DNA of 24,410 nucleotides from a virus. The position numbers and the translations under genes are program-made. The notes below the pieces were generated by a model that saw nothing but the letters and a program-made list of their open reading frames with translations, was not told the DNA's origin and ran no database searches. The stretch covers positions 1 through 24,410 of the IMG/VR virus record IMGVR_UViG_3300044491_000021. One strand, given 5' to 3'. Below, piece after piece: positions 9,510-17,611 of the stretch; the first letter of the stretch is position 1, and every line of letters starts with the position of its first letter.

Positions 9510-9705
9510 TTTCTGGATCCACCTAGTAGCATTCTTCCAAGTGGTTGTGATGAATTGCATTCAACCAGTCAACTGGCAGTATTGCTACAGGGTGGATCAG
9601 TGGCTCTTGCCAGATTTGGTCGAAGGGTATAGACTATGGACTGGAGAGACCCACCCTTATTCTCATGAGAAAGACTACCTCAAAAGCATACCTCCCTCTA
9701 AATAG
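9502..9705 (+). CDS. Small aromatic-rich protein, 67 aa, function unknown
   Basis: The frame starts at GTG 9502, overlapping the thioredoxin-like stop, and ends at TAG 9703-9705. An internal ATG at about 9550 would give a shorter form (MNCIQPVNWQ...). Residues 2-17 are hydrophobic (SFWIHLVAFFQVVVM), possibly a membrane-associated helix. The rest is rich in Trp, Tyr and Asp (NWQYCYRVDQWLLPDLVEGY). The 3' end of the gene forms the left arm of the terminator hairpin that follows. The start codon is the least certain part. Confidence 0.6.
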   Translation: MYSFWIHLVAFFQVVVMNCIQPVNWQYCYRVDQWLLPDLVEGYRLWTGETHPYSHEKDYLKSIPPSK

Positions 9706-9723
9706 TTAGACGGAGGTTTTTTT
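9691..9723 (+). terminator. Terminator hairpin that also holds the next Shine-Dalgarno
   Basis: CCTCC-C-TCTAA (9691-9701) pairs with TTAGA-C-GGAGG (9706-9716), ten pairs with one C-C mismatch, closing a 4-nt loop ATAG. Seven T residues (9717-9723) follow. GGAGG (9712-9716) is also the ribosome-binding site of the gene starting at ATG 9724, seven bases on. The octamer TCTAAATA (9697-9704), one base from a T4-late box, lies across the loop and includes part of the upstream stop codon. Confidence 0.85.
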
Positions 9724-11142
9724 ATGGCAAATAAGCAACCAACTATTACTGGTGAGTGGCAGTCTGCACTATTAAAAGTTATGGATTCTCTTGGTGATGA
9801 GAATTATTCATACTTTAATATTGATATTACAAAGACTGCTGACCCTGAAGGTAGAGCATCTATTTACTTTGCGATGAAAGTAATAGTTCCTCGTTCTGAT
9901 AGAACCAGGGCAGCAAGTTTTATTCAAGAAAGTTTGACTAAAAAAGGATTTGCACCTCAAATTAAAAGGAATGGAAATCAGTTAGATATTCCTGTAAAAA
10001 ATAAGTTTATTCGTATTGATATTAAACCAGTTGGTGGTGGATCAGGTGCTGGTGCAAAAGAGACTGCTAGGAATGAGGCAGCACAGTGTTTGTATTGTGC
10101 CCTAGCATTTAATGTTTATCGTGGGAAGATTGATGAAGACATACCTATCAGTGAAGACGCATTCAATCAAGCATTTACTACTATCGATGTTGATGTAAAA
10201 AAAGAAGATCTCTTGGTTCTCTCTCCAGAATGGGTTACATCATCTATTCGTGGAGCAAATGAACTTTGGGATAAATTCCATACATCTGGTAAAACCTATA
10301 GGTTTCATAGAGGCAAAGGTATTGACGACAAAGAAATTAAGAATGCATTTTCTAGGGTAAGATCTCAAACACCATTTTCTTCTGAGGACAAGTGGAATCC
10401 TGCTGACATCTGGATTGTCTCTAATGATTTTAATAAATCAAAATTAAATGATATTGATACCATCGATGCACTGAACCATTTTCTGTTGCAAGAGTATGAT
10501 GCAAATAGATTGATTGGTGTGTCTCTCAAGAAAGTTGAAGGTACTGCTAATCTATCTGAAAAAAATAAAGACCAAGTTGATAAAGCAAACAAGGTTGCTA
10601 ACTATGGTTTTAAAAATGTTGGATTGATTTATAAAAATGCCAGAGGTAAAGATAAGAACCCTATGGACTTGTATTTGTTCTTTGGTACAGGAACATATGA
10701 CAAGTTCCAAGCAAGAAACTTTGGTGGTGCAAACTCTGCTTCTTTCCAGTTAGAACTTAAAGGTTCCTCTGCTAACCAAGGTCGAATTGGTGGTGGTAGT
10801 GTATTCAAAATCCTTGACACTCTCGGTGTTAGTTATAAACCTTTTAACAATCAGACACTTTGGACGCAGTGTGCCCCCAAGAGCGCCCAGCGTGCTACAA
10901 TATCTCAAGAGATATGCGACCTGCTGACCGAGCACAATGCAACAGGACTTCCAAAGAACTGCACCCAAGTCATTGGTGAGATCGCAAACATGGGTCAGTC
11001 TTACAGGTACAGTAAACTTCTTGGTTTGAGACTGCTAGATGCTATCAAAAAGTCTGGCAAAGCAGATGAGATTATGCGAGAGCTCTATTTGTATGGAGCA
11101 TCACAAAGTAAAAAATCTGGGTTCTATCTCAAACTAGAGTAA
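9724..11142 (+). CDS. Large conserved-type phage protein with a possible PD-(D/E)XK-like nuclease core
   Basis: 472 residues, no certain family. The N-terminal part carries GRASIYFAMKVIVPRSDRTRAASFI and an IKPVGGGSGAGAKETARNEA segment (about 100-120). The central part has KWNPADIWIV with D228, followed 39 residues later by LIGVSLKK (S267, K269). This spacing of a P-x-D strand and an S-x-K strand resembles the active site of PD-(D/E)XK restriction-type nucleases, with Ser in place of the usual Asp/Glu. A C-terminal helical region ends in SGFYLKLE. The Shine-Dalgarno lies in the terminator hairpin. The nuclease call is a hypothesis; it could be structural. Confidence 0.8.
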   Translation: MANKQPTITGEWQSALLKVMDSLGDENYSYFNIDITKTADPEGRASIYFAMKVIVPRSDRTRAASFIQESLTKKGFAPQIKRNGNQLDIPVKNKFIRIDIKPVGGGSGAGAKETARNEAAQCLYCALAFNVYRGKIDEDIPISEDAFNQAFTTIDVDVKKEDLLVLSPEWVTSSIRGANELWDKFHTSGKTYRFHRGKGIDDKEIKNAFSRVRSQTPFSSEDKWNPADIWIVSNDFNKSKLNDIDTIDALNHFLLQEYDANRLIGVSLKKVEGTANLSEKNKDQVDKANKVANYGFKNVGLIYKNARGKDKNPMDLYLFFGTGTYDKFQARNFGGANSASFQLELKGSSANQGRIGGGSVFKILDTLGVSYKPFNNQTLWTQCAPKSAQRATISQEICDLLTEHNATGLPKNCTQVIGEIANMGQSYRYSKLLGLRLLDAIKKSGKADEIMRELYLYGASQSKKSGFYLKLE

Positions 11143-12347
11143 TGGCAAACATCAAACAACTCAAACACCTAGAGCACCTGGAAGATGAGATGCTTAACTA
11201 TGGCGTCGATGGGTGCATGGCGGCAGTTTCTTTTTTGAAAGAATTGAAAAAGATGCTGGGTCACCAAGAGAGTGCTGGTTTTATGCAGACCAAGTGGGAC
11301 GGCGCACCCTCTGTTGTTTGTGGTGTTGATCCTTTGTCTGGTTTGTTTTTTGTTGGTACTAAGTCTGTCTTTAATAAAACAGAACCCAAGACATGTTTTA
11401 CTGAAGAAGCGATTGATGGGTATTACTCTGGAGACCTTGCTGAAAAACTAAAGTTTTCTCTACGCTACTTTAGTAAGTTGGGTATTAAGGGTGTCATTCA
11501 GGGAGACTTGTTATACACAGATTCTACTAGAACAAGAGAGACAGTAAATGGAGAACAACTCTACACATTTCGACCAAACACTATTACTTATGGCATCCCT
11601 ACTGACCACGATATTGGTAAACAAGTTGGGAAATCAAAGATTGGAGTAGTATTTCATACACACTATGTTGGAACTGAGTTAGCAGAGATGCAAGCTCGTG
11701 CTGGTGCTCCTATTCATGAGTTTAATAAAATTCCTGAGGTTGCTGTAATTGATAACGACACACCTATGGATCGTGTTGGATTCTCTAAGGCAGAAATGCA
11801 AAGGTTTGATGGTTACATTTCTAAGATCGAACGTATGTGTCGTATCTGCGGAGACTTTCTTGACGAACTGGTTGGTGCAAGTGGTAGCACTGGTGACGCA
11901 AAGTTTCATATTTCTACTTTCTTGAAACCATACTTTAATGATCAAATTAAAAATGCTCGCAGCATCGGTAACATTGATGAAGCATTGTATGATCTAGCAA
12001 ATTTTTATCATGCTAAAACTAGTAAAGAACTTGCCAAGATTAAGACTGCTGCAAATCTTACTAAGAAGCGTAATCTTGTATACCAGAGCGAAAATTACCT
12101 AGTAGACAATGTGTATAAGTTTAAGGCAATGATTGCTTTGTACAAAGAACTGCAGGCAGTGAAGCAAATGGTTATAGATAAACTGGACCACCTGGAAGAG
12201 TTTAGAACATACGTTCAGACTGATAAAGGATATAAGGTTACGACTCCTGAGGGATATGTTCTGCATAAAGATGGCAGTATGATCAAGTTTGTCAATCGCT
12301 TGGAGTTTGCTTACAATAATTTTACTCTGCAAAAGCAATGGCGTTAG
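11142..12347 (+). CDS. KxDG nucleotidyltransferase-like protein (RNA/DNA ligase superfamily)
   Basis: 401 residues. K51-W-D-G54 in TKWDGAPSVV fits motif I (KxDG) of covalent nucleotidyltransferases, where the lysine is adenylylated. GVIQGDLLY (D122) is a plausible motif III-type strand. EGYVLHKDG starting at E370 and IKFV (K382) fit motifs IV (EGxV) and V. Between them is a long helical insertion (about 200-340) rich in Lys and Glu. All motifs are in the correct order and spacing is broad but possible. The enzyme may ligate, cap or adenylate nucleic acid ends; substrate unknown. It starts one base inside the stop of the previous gene and overlaps the next by 10 nt. Confidence 0.85.
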   Translation: MANIKQLKHLEHLEDEMLNYGVDGCMAAVSFLKELKKMLGHQESAGFMQTKWDGAPSVVCGVDPLSGLFFVGTKSVFNKTEPKTCFTEEAIDGYYSGDLAEKLKFSLRYFSKLGIKGVIQGDLLYTDSTRTRETVNGEQLYTFRPNTITYGIPTDHDIGKQVGKSKIGVVFHTHYVGTELAEMQARAGAPIHEFNKIPEVAVIDNDTPMDRVGFSKAEMQRFDGYISKIERMCRICGDFLDELVGASGSTGDAKFHISTFLKPYFNDQIKNARSIGNIDEALYDLANFYHAKTSKELAKIKTAANLTKKRNLVYQSENYLVDNVYKFKAMIALYKELQAVKQMVIDKLDHLEEFRTYVQTDKGYKVTTPEGYVLHKDGSMIKFVNRLEFAYNNFTLQKQWR

Positions 12348-12901
12348 ACGGAAAGGTTTGTTACTTTACATTTGGTAGGTTCCAACCACCTACTACAGGA
12401 CACAAAGAGAACTTTGATGGCGTGAAGAAAGCAGCAGGTTCTCATGATTATCGTATCTACATTTCCCAGACTGTAGATAAAAAAGGTAGCAACCCTCTCC
12501 CACCAGATCGTAAGAAATATTATATGGATAAGATGTTTCCAGAACATCGTGGTAAAATATTTTCAGGTCCAAGACAACCCGTTGAAATTCTGCAAGATCT
12601 TATGCTGGCGGGATATGATGAGGTTGTCTTTTTAGTAGGTTCTGACAGGGTTTCTGCCATGCAGTTCCTTCATAAATATAATGGAAAAGATTTTTCGTTT
12701 AGAAAAATCGAGATTAAGTCTTCTGGAAGCAGAGATGCTGACGGGGACACTTTTGCTATATCTGGAACAAAGATGAGACGTGCAGCGTTTGCTGGAGACT
12801 TCAAACTTTTTCGTCAAGGTATTCCTAAAGCATTAAATGATAATGATTGTCGCGCTTTGATGTCAGAGATCGTGGCAAATTTGCCTAAAAATTTTAAATG
12901 A
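12338..12901 (+). CDS. HxGH-type nucleotidyltransferase (NMNAT / cytidylyltransferase-like)
   Basis: 187 residues. The N-terminal FGRFQPPTTGH (T19-T20-G21-H22) corresponds to the (H/T)xGH motif of the nucleotidylyltransferase superfamily. VVFLVGSDR (96-104) is the usual central strand, and ISGTKMR (141-147) is the C-terminal ISSTxxR-type motif. Members join a nucleoside triphosphate to a phosphate-containing acceptor, for example ATP plus nicotinamide mononucleotide to give NAD, or CTP plus glycerol phosphate. The acceptor here cannot be told from sequence. It overlaps the KxDG protein by 10 nt and its stop overlaps the following gene as ATGA, so the three enzymes form one operon. Confidence 0.9.
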   Translation: MALDGKVCYFTFGRFQPPTTGHKENFDGVKKAAGSHDYRIYISQTVDKKGSNPLPPDRKKYYMDKMFPEHRGKIFSGPRQPVEILQDLMLAGYDEVVFLVGSDRVSAMQFLHKYNGKDFSFRKIEIKSSGSRDADGDTFAISGTKMRRAAFAGDFKLFRQGIPKALNDNDCRALMSEIVANLPKNFK

Positions 12902-13152
12902 AAGATTTTAAGAAATTAAGAGAAGAAGCACTGCGTCAGCAGCAGCGACATACTGAAGTATTCAAAGAAGGTGATGCTGTCATGTCTTCACGTACAGGAG
13001 ACAAAGGACACATTCATAGAGTTGGTGGTAACTATGCTATAGTTATTGCTGAAGAGGGACACATGTTCCGTGAGTGGATTAAGAATATTAGATCTATAAA
13101 TAATACCAGAAGAACTTCCCTGTTAAACGATGAATTACCAGAAGCCAATTAA
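12898..13152 (+). CDS. Small KOW-like protein with a capsid-targeting-like N-terminus
   Basis: 84 residues. The first 11 (MKDFKKLREEA) resemble the capsid-targeting sequence of T4 internal head proteins (consensus close to MKTYQEFIAEA), with an LxE-type site for a prohead protease. The middle, EGDAVMSSRTGDKGHIHRVGGNYAIVIAEEG, has the beta-turn layout of a KOW/SH3-like nucleic-acid-binding barrel. The C-terminus is basic and overlaps the next gene by 23 nt. A TATAAATA box lies in its 3' end. Role in the virion interior is inference. Confidence 0.75.
   Translation: MKDFKKLREEALRQQQRHTEVFKEGDAVMSSRTGDKGHIHRVGGNYAIVIAEEGHMFREWIKNIRSINNTRRTSLLNDELPEAN
13095..13102 (+). promoter_or_regulatory. T4-late-type promoter box TATAAATA
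   Basis: A perfect TATAAATA octamer followed by A lies within the end of the previous gene and 28 bases before the ATG at 13130. In T4 such boxes at -10 are recognised by gp55-directed RNA polymerase late in infection. It would transcribe the lysine-rich proteins that follow. Confidence 0.65.
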
Positions 13153-13744
13153 TAGTGTTAACTCAAATGATTTATTTTCGTCTGGGTTGATGGAACAGTA
13201 TGGCAAGTGGATGGAAGGTGACTGTTTCCAGAATACCGAGATGCCTGAGTTGCACCTATCAGAAGCACCTTTTGATGGTATGGATCCTCAGTCAAATGGT
13301 GCTGAGATCGAAGACACCACTAAGCGTAAGAAGACTGCTAAGAAGGGTGGATATGTCGGTCAAGAGTCTGCACCTAAGAACGAAGAGACTGAAGTTCTTG
13401 AGCGTGAAGAGTATGAGATCGATGGTGAGACTTATGTAATTGAGAAGGCAAAGGGTCTCGATGGTAAGGCTTGCTGGAAGGGATATAAGCTTGCTGGTAC
13501 TAAGAAGAAGGGTGGTAAGACTGTTGACAATTGTGTCAAGGCAGGTGACGAATTAGTCCATGACGGTGAAAAGTTAGACGAGAAGAAGTTAGACGCTGTT
13601 AATCATGCTGAACTTAAGGGTAAGCATTCTGAGCGTAAAGATAAGGATATCGACAATGATGGCGATGTAGATAAGTCTGACAAGTACCTTCACATGCGTC
13701 GTAAGAAAGTTTCTAAAATCATTGGAATGAAGGGAAAGAAATGA
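13130..13744 (+). CDS. Lysine-rich, EF-hand-like putative virion protein
   Basis: 204 residues, very rich in Lys, Glu, Asp and Gly. Near the C-terminus DIDNDGDVDKSD (about 178-189) is an EF-hand/dockerin-type calcium loop, followed by KYLHMRRKK. A second recognisable unit, CWKGYKLAGTKKKGGKT with a later Cys, occurs at about 117-140, a type of motif seen in cyanophage structural proteins. The start at 13130 overlaps the previous gene; an ATG at 13190 is an alternative. It overlaps the next gene as ATGA. It may be a prohead core or decoration component, but this is inferred from composition and the late promoter. Confidence 0.8.
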   Translation: MNYQKPINSVNSNDLFSSGLMEQYGKWMEGDCFQNTEMPELHLSEAPFDGMDPQSNGAEIEDTTKRKKTAKKGGYVGQESAPKNEETEVLEREEYEIDGETYVIEKAKGLDGKACWKGYKLAGTKKKGGKTVDNCVKAGDELVHDGEKLDEKKLDAVNHAELKGKHSERKDKDIDNDGDVDKSDKYLHMRRKKVSKIIGMKGKK

Positions 13745-14178
13745 AGACATTTAAACAACTTCGTGAGGAGTGTGGGTGTAAAGATAAAGAACGTAAAGCA
13801 AAAAAGAAGAAGTCTGGTAATGTAGAAATCATGCCTACTGTCAATGATGGACAGAAAGGTATGGTTACTAAACCTACTAATGAGTCTGTATTTGCTGGTA
13901 ATTATGAAGGACCACTCTATGCCCCTCATCCTGATCTAGTCAAGGAGGTAGCACCACCTGGAAAAAAGTACGAAAGGATGGTCAAGCACATAAAGAAAAA
14001 CTATCCGAAAGATAAAGAAGGTATTGCTTATGCTACTGCTTGGAAGCATAAGAACAAGAAAGAATCGTTTGAGGGTGGTGTGCAAAAAGCACGCCGTGAT
14101 CATAGATCTGGCACGCTACTAACCTTCAAACAGTTCTTGTCAAAGTTGACAGACATTTTAGATGAGTGGGAGAAATAA
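13741..14178 (+). CDS. Basic protein with capsid-targeting-like N-terminus, putative internal head protein
   Basis: 145 residues. The start MKTFKQLREE closely resembles the T4 capsid-targeting sequence and is followed by a strongly basic stretch (KDKERKAKKKK). The central GKKYERMVKHIKKNYPKDKE plus IAYATAWKHKNKK is a repeated unit in cyanomyovirus structural proteins as I recall. Near the C-terminus LLTFKQFLSKL repeats the FKQ(L/F) pattern of the N-terminus. The high charge would suit binding to packaged DNA. It is coupled to the previous gene by ATGA, and its stop is part of a late-type box. Confidence 0.78.
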   Translation: MKTFKQLREECGCKDKERKAKKKKSGNVEIMPTVNDGQKGMVTKPTNESVFAGNYEGPLYAPHPDLVKEVAPPGKKYERMVKHIKKNYPKDKEGIAYATAWKHKNKKESFEGGVQKARRDHRSGTLLTFKQFLSKLTDILDEWEK

Positions 14179-16635: not shown

Positions 16636-17611
16636 CGTTAAGTATATCCAACTAGTATCCTCTCGCCTTACCCTCTTCAGCCGCAAGAAAGCAGACCTGT
16701 ACAATTTCAGGTGTCCTTACTGTGGTGATAGTCAGAAGAGGCGTAACAAGGCGAGGGGATACCTTTTTAAGATCAAGAATGACTTTGTGTTTAAATGCCA
16801 CAACTGTGGCATGGGTAGAACACTTGCTAATTTTTTAAAGGATCAAGACACAATGCTCCATGATCAATATGTCATGGAGAAATTTAAAGATGGTAGAACT
16901 GGTAAGGGAACTACCGTACCCAATCCTAAATTCAATTTCACACCTCCAAAATTTGTAAAACGTGATACAGGTTTAGAGAAAATTTCTTCGCTAAATATTT
17001 CTCACCCAGCGAGAGAATATCTTGAGAACCGAGGCATCAAAGATCTAGATTATTTCTATTACTGTCCTAAGTTTAAAGCTTGGACAAATGAACAAAAGAA
17101 GATGTTTGATAATCTCCGTCAAGATTCTCCACGTATTATTATTCCATTCCGAGACAAAGAAGGTAACCTGTTTGGATATCAAGGCAGATCGCTAGCCCCT
17201 AAGGCAAAACTAAGATACATCACGATCATGCTGGATGATGAACAACCCAAGATCTTTGGTTTAGATAGAATAAAAGACGACAAACCTGTTTATATTGTTG
17301 AGGGACCATTTGATGCGACCTTCTTGGAAAACTCAGTTGCTATGGCTGGGTCCGACGCTGATGCTAGGACGTTTGGTTGGAGCAATTATATTTGGGTATT
17401 TGATAATGAACCACGCAACCGAGAGATCGTCAATCGTATCTCCAAAGTCATCGACCGAGGAGATAAAATAGTCATTTGGCCTAAGAAAATACAACAAAAA
17501 GACATCAACGATATGGTCCTTGCTGGACATAACGTTCAAGATGTAGTAGACTCTAACGTCTACAGTGGATTAGAAGCAACCCTAAAATTTAACGACTGGA
17601 AAAAAGTATGA
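16622..17611 (+). CDS. 61: DNA primase gp61
   Basis: Makes RNA primers for Okazaki fragments together with helicase gp41. 329 residues, close to T4 gp61 (342). An N-terminal zinc ribbon has C31-P-Y-C34 and C59-H-N-C62. A TOPRIM catalytic domain follows: YIVEGPFDA with E227, VFDNEPRN with D261, and KDINDM with D294. Translation starts at GTG (16622) inside the previous gene, with no clear Shine-Dalgarno. Its stop overlaps nrdA as ATGA. In T4 the genes for primase and helicase are also apart. Confidence 0.94.
   Translation: MSFLDVKYIQLVSSRLTLFSRKKADLYNFRCPYCGDSQKRRNKARGYLFKIKNDFVFKCHNCGMGRTLANFLKDQDTMLHDQYVMEKFKDGRTGKGTTVPNPKFNFTPPKFVKRDTGLEKISSLNISHPAREYLENRGIKDLDYFYYCPKFKAWTNEQKKMFDNLRQDSPRIIIPFRDKEGNLFGYQGRSLAPKAKLRYITIMLDDEQPKIFGLDRIKDDKPVYIVEGPFDATFLENSVAMAGSDADARTFGWSNYIWVFDNEPRNREIVNRISKVIDRGDKIVIWPKKIQQKDINDMVLAGHNVQDVVDSNVYSGLEATLKFNDWKKV

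Follow-up and report, generated by a model that had tools for sequence, protein, structure and literature searches.

A putatively late cyanomyovirus cassette combining an exchangeable nuclease-like gene, a predicted ligase-fold DUF6267 protein and a nucleotidyltransferase

Several described systems share features with a cassette of three genes, encoding proteins P1, P2 and P3, in a 24,410-base contig from a virus of the marine cyanomyovirus type (IMG/VR record IMGVR_UViG_3300044491_000021; the whole contig is referred to as the window). T4 RNA ligases 1 and 2 and the Naegleria RNA ligase resemble P2, a DUF6267 protein, in predicted fold and in the order of motifs I, III, IV and V. P2 differs from these ligases in having no significant sequence-profile similarity to them, an aspartate (D122) where motif III usually has a glutamate, a helical insert of ~135 residues (~216-351) between motifs III and IV, and an N-terminal HLEHxED motif. 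The proteins encoded at the position of P1, referred to as the slot, share a D...SxK signature in strand context with type II restriction endonucleases and other PD-(D/E)XK nucleases; however, most slot types, including P1, have serine in place of the acidic residue, the canonical ExK occurs in few (e.g. loci L142 and L174), and a methyltransferase partner was not noticed beside them. The T4 homing endonucleases (I-TevI, segB, mobE) and gene 49 resemble the slot in having a late promoter inside a hairpin that sequesters the ribosome-binding site on a long early/middle transcription unit (PMC2988022, PMC3014915). Unlike the homing endonucleases, the slot is PD-(D/E)XK-like rather than GIY-YIG or HNH, is always filled in the clade of the window and is coupled to DUF6267 and a nucleotidyltransferase. 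P3 belongs to the same family as the virion cytidylyltransferase/nicotinamide mononucleotide adenylyltransferase (NMNAT)-like protein T4-GC190, which in the clade of the window is split into a nucleotidyltransferase without a capsid-targeting start (P3) and a C-terminal domain with one (P4). The presence of the nucleotidyltransferase in virions and the hairpin device are already known. The assignment of DUF6267 to a ligase fold, its near-constant pairing with a swapped nuclease slot and a late switch common to all slot types were not found in the literature searched, and neither was the name DUF6267.

A sequence-only reading of the window had proposed three overlapping genes for a nuclease-like and two nucleotidyltransferase proteins that together could cut, adenylate or seal nucleic acid ends. 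The three open reading frames are real (472, 401 and 187 amino acids; Table 1), with overlaps of 1 nt between P1 and P2 and 10 nt between P2 and P3. The nuclease-like, ligase-type and HxGH-type assignments hold, but the cutting, adenylating and sealing chemistry does not stand as it was put. From the computed fold and motif results we infer a joint function, and the most likely role, advanced here tentatively, is that nucleic acid ends are cut and sealed late in infection or by proteins carried in the virion.

The gene directly 5' of DUF6267 is not always P1. The 158 proteins encoded at this position form 30 sequence clusters, the majority of which, though not all, are nuclease-like. The slot is filled in 78/78 loci of the window's clade by at least nine nuclease-like types, and outside the clade a nuclease-like gene lies immediately upstream of DUF6267 in 68 of 99 loci. 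In loci L045 and L046 identity is 88% as far as the slot start and 94% after the slot stop, and the stretch between shows no similarity; the same exact exchange is seen in the pairs L071/L079 and L071/L076. A tree of the neighbour gene DUF6267 from 67 loci, which recombination near the border could affect, has at least 12 changes of slot type among nine types. DUF6267 and the nucleotidyltransferase stay ~80-90% identical while the slot nuclease changes. Judged by these comparisons, the position of P1 is a swap slot, exchanged gene for gene. When scanned for a conserved D and, after it, (S/E/D)xK, the four largest clusters gave exactly one match each (KWNPADIW...GVSLKK, LTDITL...VYLSVKFG, PKTDI...RISLKKA and PKADLAL...GFISHK are examples); the scan had no control on unrelated families and singleton clusters often match by chance, and the argument uses multi-member clusters only. 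Several clusters are joined by profile comparison across this segment, and one slot family matches the PADLOC REase_II/type II restriction enzyme models (4e-10 to 2e-12).

P1 itself had been read as a possible PD-(D/E)XK-like nuclease, and this is upheld by a signature, D228...S267-L-K269, that is kept in 25/25 sequences. Both the conserved D (D228) and the conserved K (K269) of PD-(D/E)XK nucleases are present in all 25, while the acidic residue of (D/E)xK is not, Ser267 being found in 25/25. Because Ser267 replaces the acidic residue, P1 is filed only as PD-(D/E)XK-like. The invariant residues are E118, D228, S267, K269, Q329, R331, Q342 and E344. The AF2 model of P1 has a predicted local distance difference test (pLDDT) score of 84.6, and its best fold matches in BFVD are unnamed phage proteins; other cyanophage proteins, including the P-SSM3 slot protein at 16% identity, are among the matches. 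The PDB fold list covers mainly residues 4-109, so it is uninformative on the PD-(D/E)XK fold. That N-terminal domain (9733-10050 in the window) resembles the Pol-beta nucleotidyltransferase/RsfS fold, with Z at most 9.6. No P1 family is present in Padloc, NCBIfam or Pfam, and profiles of P1, P2 and slot family c3 returned nothing useful when searched against PDB sequences.

The sequence directly before P1 reads ACCTCC-C-TCTAA-ATAG-TTAGA-C-GGAGGT followed by a T tract. It folds into a hairpin (dG -13.5, z -3.8) that holds the Shine-Dalgarno sequence of P1 (GGAGG, 9712-9716) in its 3' arm, and it also contains a T4-type late promoter core, CTAAATA. With NATAAATA published as the late promoter of cyanophages (PMC2984593), CTAAATA counts as a close variant. 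Every slot type of the clade is preceded by this element, with a fold in 44/46 leaders and GGAGG in 41/46. The late-promoter-like motif lies 5' of 50/51 slot genes, of 0/81 control genes located upstream and of 0/56 genes for DUF6267; for distant relatives the counts are 49/71 vs 24/333. Computed folds of the read-through leaders bury the ribosome site in 47/47 cases, with a mean unpaired probability of 0.001; in the predicted late transcript it is partly exposed (0.43). The leaders were folded one by one, and a fold of the MAFFT alignment was set aside with its stems misaligned. Since a late promoter in a hairpin that hides the ribosome site opens the operon, we take the operon, a putative late T4-type unit spanning 9690-14178, to be expressed late.

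The strongest rival for the slot is that its nuclease is a homing-type selfish endonuclease that spreads by cutting rival phages at or near the locus (marker exclusion), with P2 and P3 as a conserved landing pad. A late promoter within such a hairpin is indeed described for I-TevI/II/III, segB and mobE (PMC2988022), and the exact replacement of slot genes and the repeated changes of slot type described above fit homing. At locus L164 (4028-4708) the slot directly before DUF6267 holds a GIY-YIG-like gene and a P1-like nuclease gene lies one place up, which may be a homing insertion. Yet the slot is never empty in the clade and no empty alleles are seen among close relatives, the same hairpin arrangement also serves the non-homing T4 genes e, soc and 49 (PMC3014915, PMC2988022), and the association with DUF6267 spans very distant phages, in which some of the nucleases have capsid-targeting starts. 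Homing is an appreciable but doubtful explanation.

P2 matches Pfam DUF6267 (PF19782) at 3e-124. Its AF2 model, built from 91 sequences of the window and contigs of relatives, has a pLDDT of 88.3. The best structural neighbor by VIA-align is the Naegleria RNA ligase 5cou (Z 8.1 over 182 residues), next come T4 Rnl2 (2hvq, Z 7.0) and T4 Rnl1 (2c5u, 6.7), DNA ligases score ~5.5-6, and RNA and DNA ligases together take nearly all of the top 50. A Foldseek search of the same model against the PDB gave nothing significant (E > 0.1). The strength of a ligase catalytic fold as predicted for P2 is moderate. The motifs I, IV and V of covalent nucleotidyltransferases that had been noticed from the sequence are all near-invariant, and motif III can be added. 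Motif I is K51WDG (K51 in 90/91, D53 in 91/91 and G54 in 90/91 homologues), followed in order by Q120GD122, E370GYV and K382 (D122 in 91/91, E370 and K382 each in 90/90); motifs III, IV and V sit beside or within strands of the model. The best alignment of DUF6267 by hhalign, which is not significant, places K51 on the motif I lysine of Rnl2 and D122 on motif III. As the profile-profile comparison is not significant, the kinship of P2 with ligases is based on fold and motifs. Both the fold predicted for P2 and its catalytic motifs are those of ATP-dependent nucleic acid ligases. DUF6267 also occurs on 34 contigs binned as bacteria or archaea (L168-L201; e.g. Nonlabens, Prochlorococcus single cells and metagenome-assembled genomes); it was considered whether the family is a feature of hosts or of such assembled genomes, but these contigs are probably phage sequence in the bins.

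Since RNA ligases are the closest structural neighbors of P2, P2 could be a true RNA ligase of the Rnl1/Rnl2 type that repairs tRNAs or other RNAs after their cleavage by host defence, P3 giving NMNAT-like support. No other recognisable DNA or RNA ligase is present in the eight complete DUF6267-bearing genomes (seven cyanophages and Melnitz-2), whereas T4 has an RNA ligase. On the other hand, the differences in Z are small, a kinase or phosphatase partner was not noticed beside P2, and a late promoter and a DNA-type nuclease partner fit RNA repair poorly. Early action would need packaging, which the start of P2 in the window does not suggest. RNA repair is unlikely to be the role of P2.

P3 had been described as a classical HxGH nucleotidyltransferase. 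The enzyme class holds, but the letter pattern in the window is T-x-G-H (T19TGH22); both H and T occur at the first motif position in the family, and S-SZBM1 has HAGH. The P3 motifs are TTGH and ISGTKMR, and G21, H22 and R147 are invariant in eight diverse members. The matching family, phrog_3041, is annotated as cytidyltransferase. P3 misses the gathering score of Pfam CTP_transf_like (21 bits), which is a library cut-off and not a chemical feature, and it has a weak profile match to NadR (6gye). The co-occurrence of the genes in related phages, suggested earlier as a check, was found: the nucleotidyltransferase adjoins DUF6267 in 103 loci and lies within 6 kb in 49, and the two are fused in S-PM2. 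Among the remaining 46 DUF6267 loci, the sequence stops within 3 kb downstream in 28, and the other 18 extend far enough but show no nucleotidyltransferase match nearby. The INPHARED records with DUF6267 and with the nucleotidyltransferase number 368/376 for Synechococcus, 61/61 for Cyanophage and 24/24 for Prochlorococcus. The P3 family is also found in phages of Pseudomonas, Klebsiella, Erwinia and Escherichia, several of them jumbo phages, and these enterobacterial and Pseudomonas groups are absent among the organisms listed for DUF6267.

The genes after the trio had been noted to have capsid-targeting-like starts, and P4 (MKDFKKLREE) and P6 do. Outside the clade of the window such starts are found in 78/98 DUF6267 proteins, 33/45 nucleotidyltransferases and 26/69 slot proteins compared with 18/110 control genes (Fisher p 7e-21 for DUF6267 and 2e-11 for the nucleotidyltransferase); examples are MINFNSFITE-DKGG and MKTYQRFMTE. 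The pattern is loose, as 16% of controls match and several T4 head proteins are missed, and it is used only between groups. The S-SM1 orthologue of P3 is T4-GC190 (SSM1_190), which was detected in purified virions by Sullivan et al. (PMC3037559). The nucleotidyltransferase was detected by mass spectrometry in S-SZBM1 virions (PMC9146016) and was also detected in S-CREM2 virions (PMC10665884), and NMNAT-like proteins were detected for S-SCSM1 and S-CBWM1 virions (PMC9602691). The authors of the virion studies do not exclude carry-over with purified virions. The proposed link to virion proteins is thus borne out for orthologues of P3 in S-SM1, S-CREM2 and S-SZBM1, and packaging of the nucleotidyltransferase family is supported. 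The S-SZBM1 nucleotidyltransferase has a capsid-targeting-like start, MRFRQFIIEA, and the DUF6267 and slot genes of S-SZBM1 do not have such starts.

The virion studies of S-SCSM1, S-CBWM1 and S-CREM2 read the NMNAT-like proteins as metabolic (PMC9602691, PMC10665884). P3 would then act as an NMN adenylyltransferase, brought in to raise NAD, and P1 and P2 would be unrelated in function; the match to NadR agrees with this. Against it, the fusion in S-PM2 and the tight linkage point to a joint function, and the Pfam score of P3 is below the cut-off. A purely metabolic role is improbable. Least probable of all is a role for P2 as the replicative DNA ligase that is missing in cyanomyoviruses, standing in for T4 gp30: cyanomyoviruses have no recognised gp30 (PMC2984593), PF01068, PF01653 and PF09414 were not found in S-PM2, P-SSM3, S-WAM2, S-SM1 and others, and P2 lies between gp41 and gp61, but this is a weak rival because the operon opens with a late promoter and relatives carry capsid-targeting starts, and moreover DUF6267 and a DNA ligase occur together in Stenotrophomonas phage DLP_6, and the ligase of the host can take over (PMC2984593).

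Late or virion-borne cutting and sealing of ends would proceed as follows. P1 would be a sequence-specific endonuclease, held off until late because it would be dangerous to replicating phage DNA. P2 would seal or adenylate nucleic acid ends, and P3 may make or recycle a nucleotide cofactor or end group for the same task. The products would act at virion maturation or, if packaged, on arrival in the next cell; the packaged route may apply to many relatives and, in cyanophages, at least to the orthologue of P3. The nuclease would target non-self DNA of the host or a rival phage, and the ligase and nucleotidyltransferase pair would mend or protect ends. The combination of guarded late expression with a nuclease that can be exchanged, a partner of ligase fold and a nucleotidyltransferase linked to virions best fits a kit that would cut foreign nucleic acid ends and mend or protect the phage's own, at virion maturation or on entry. 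A more specific version is a phage system that resembles restriction-modification but is built differently, in which a swappable, sequence-specific nuclease delivered late or by the virion is combined with a constant ligase-fold enzyme and nucleotidyltransferase that mend or cap the phage's own ends whatever the target of the nuclease. It would explain why the nuclease changes while its two partners stay nearly constant, but it is quite speculative and has a low probability.

Several results weigh against cutting and sealing by a joint system. The activities of P1, P2 and P3 are predictions made by computation. The hhalign comparisons of DUF6267 were not significant, both for T4 Rnl2 by itself and for 20 RNA ligase relatives. 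An adjacent nuclease-like gene is missing in 31/99 distant loci, and in S-CREM2 the nucleotidyltransferase and DUF6267 are at different places in the genome. P1-P3 of the window's clade do not have a capsid-targeting start with an (L/I)xE site, and P4 and P6 pass; neither DUF6267 nor the slot gene appears in those passages of the S-SZBM1 virion table that the analysis covered (PMC9146016). Packaging of P1-P3 of the window is not supported because of these missing starts and the S-SZBM1 result.

The nearest named record to the window is Synechococcus phage S-WAM2 (~85% nucleotide identity). The gene order is DNA polymerase, UvsX, gp41 helicase, MazG, thioredoxin, P1-P6, head protein, gp61 primase and NrdA/NrdB. 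P4 (84 amino acids) matches by blastp the C-terminal part of the Melnitz-2 and P-SSM3 nucleotidyltransferase proteins. In PHROGs and several GenBank records P4 is labelled 'ribonucleotide reductase alpha subunit' or 'NrdB'. Sequence similarity marks it instead as a small domain that other phages have as the C-terminal part of their nucleotidyltransferase protein; it is not NrdA/NrdB, and the real NrdA and NrdB are at 17608 and 19910. P5 has a DxDNDGDVDxSDKYLHxRRK repeat and a CWKGYKxAGTKxKGGKxVDNCVK motif, both common to the C-terminal parts of nucleotidyltransferase proteins of other phages and to their neighbours. P5 and P6 are probably internal head proteins.

Table 1. Positions in the window of the control element and of the genes P1 to P6.
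Feature	Position	Strand	Basis
Control element: hairpin 9690-9717 and T tract	9690..9723	+	late core CTAAATA 9698-9704 in 5' arm/loop
P1, PD-(D/E)XK-like nuclease, variant S-x-K, exchangeable slot	9724..11142	+	phrog_1462, conservation, AF2, BFVD
P2, DUF6267, ligase-fold covalent nucleotidyltransferase-like	11142..12347	+	PF19782 3e-124, AF2, VIA-align, motifs
P3, (H/T)xGH nucleotidyltransferase, NMNAT/cytidylyltransferase-like	12338..12901	+	phrog_3041 5e-68, CTP_transf_like 18.7 bits
P4, capsid-targeting-like start; C-terminal domain of other phages' nucleotidyltransferase protein	12898..13152	+	blastp, phrog_395 209-276
P5, probable internal virion protein	13130..13744	+	phrog_4359, DUF7201; late promoter motif TATAAATA 27 nt upstream
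P6, capsid-targeting-like start MKTFKQLREE	13741..14178	+	phrog_12887, pattern check

Cyanomyoviruses have been said to lack a recognised DNA ligase and the host-DNA-degrading enzymes of T4, and perhaps to use an undescribed method (PMC2984593). The cassette contains concrete candidates for activities of the ligase and nuclease types in these phages, and DUF6267 gains a predicted fold. The cassette also reveals gene-by-gene turnover at a nuclease slot in phages that are abundant in the ocean, and it makes conflict over nucleic acids between phages, or between phage and host, directly testable with cultured isolates.

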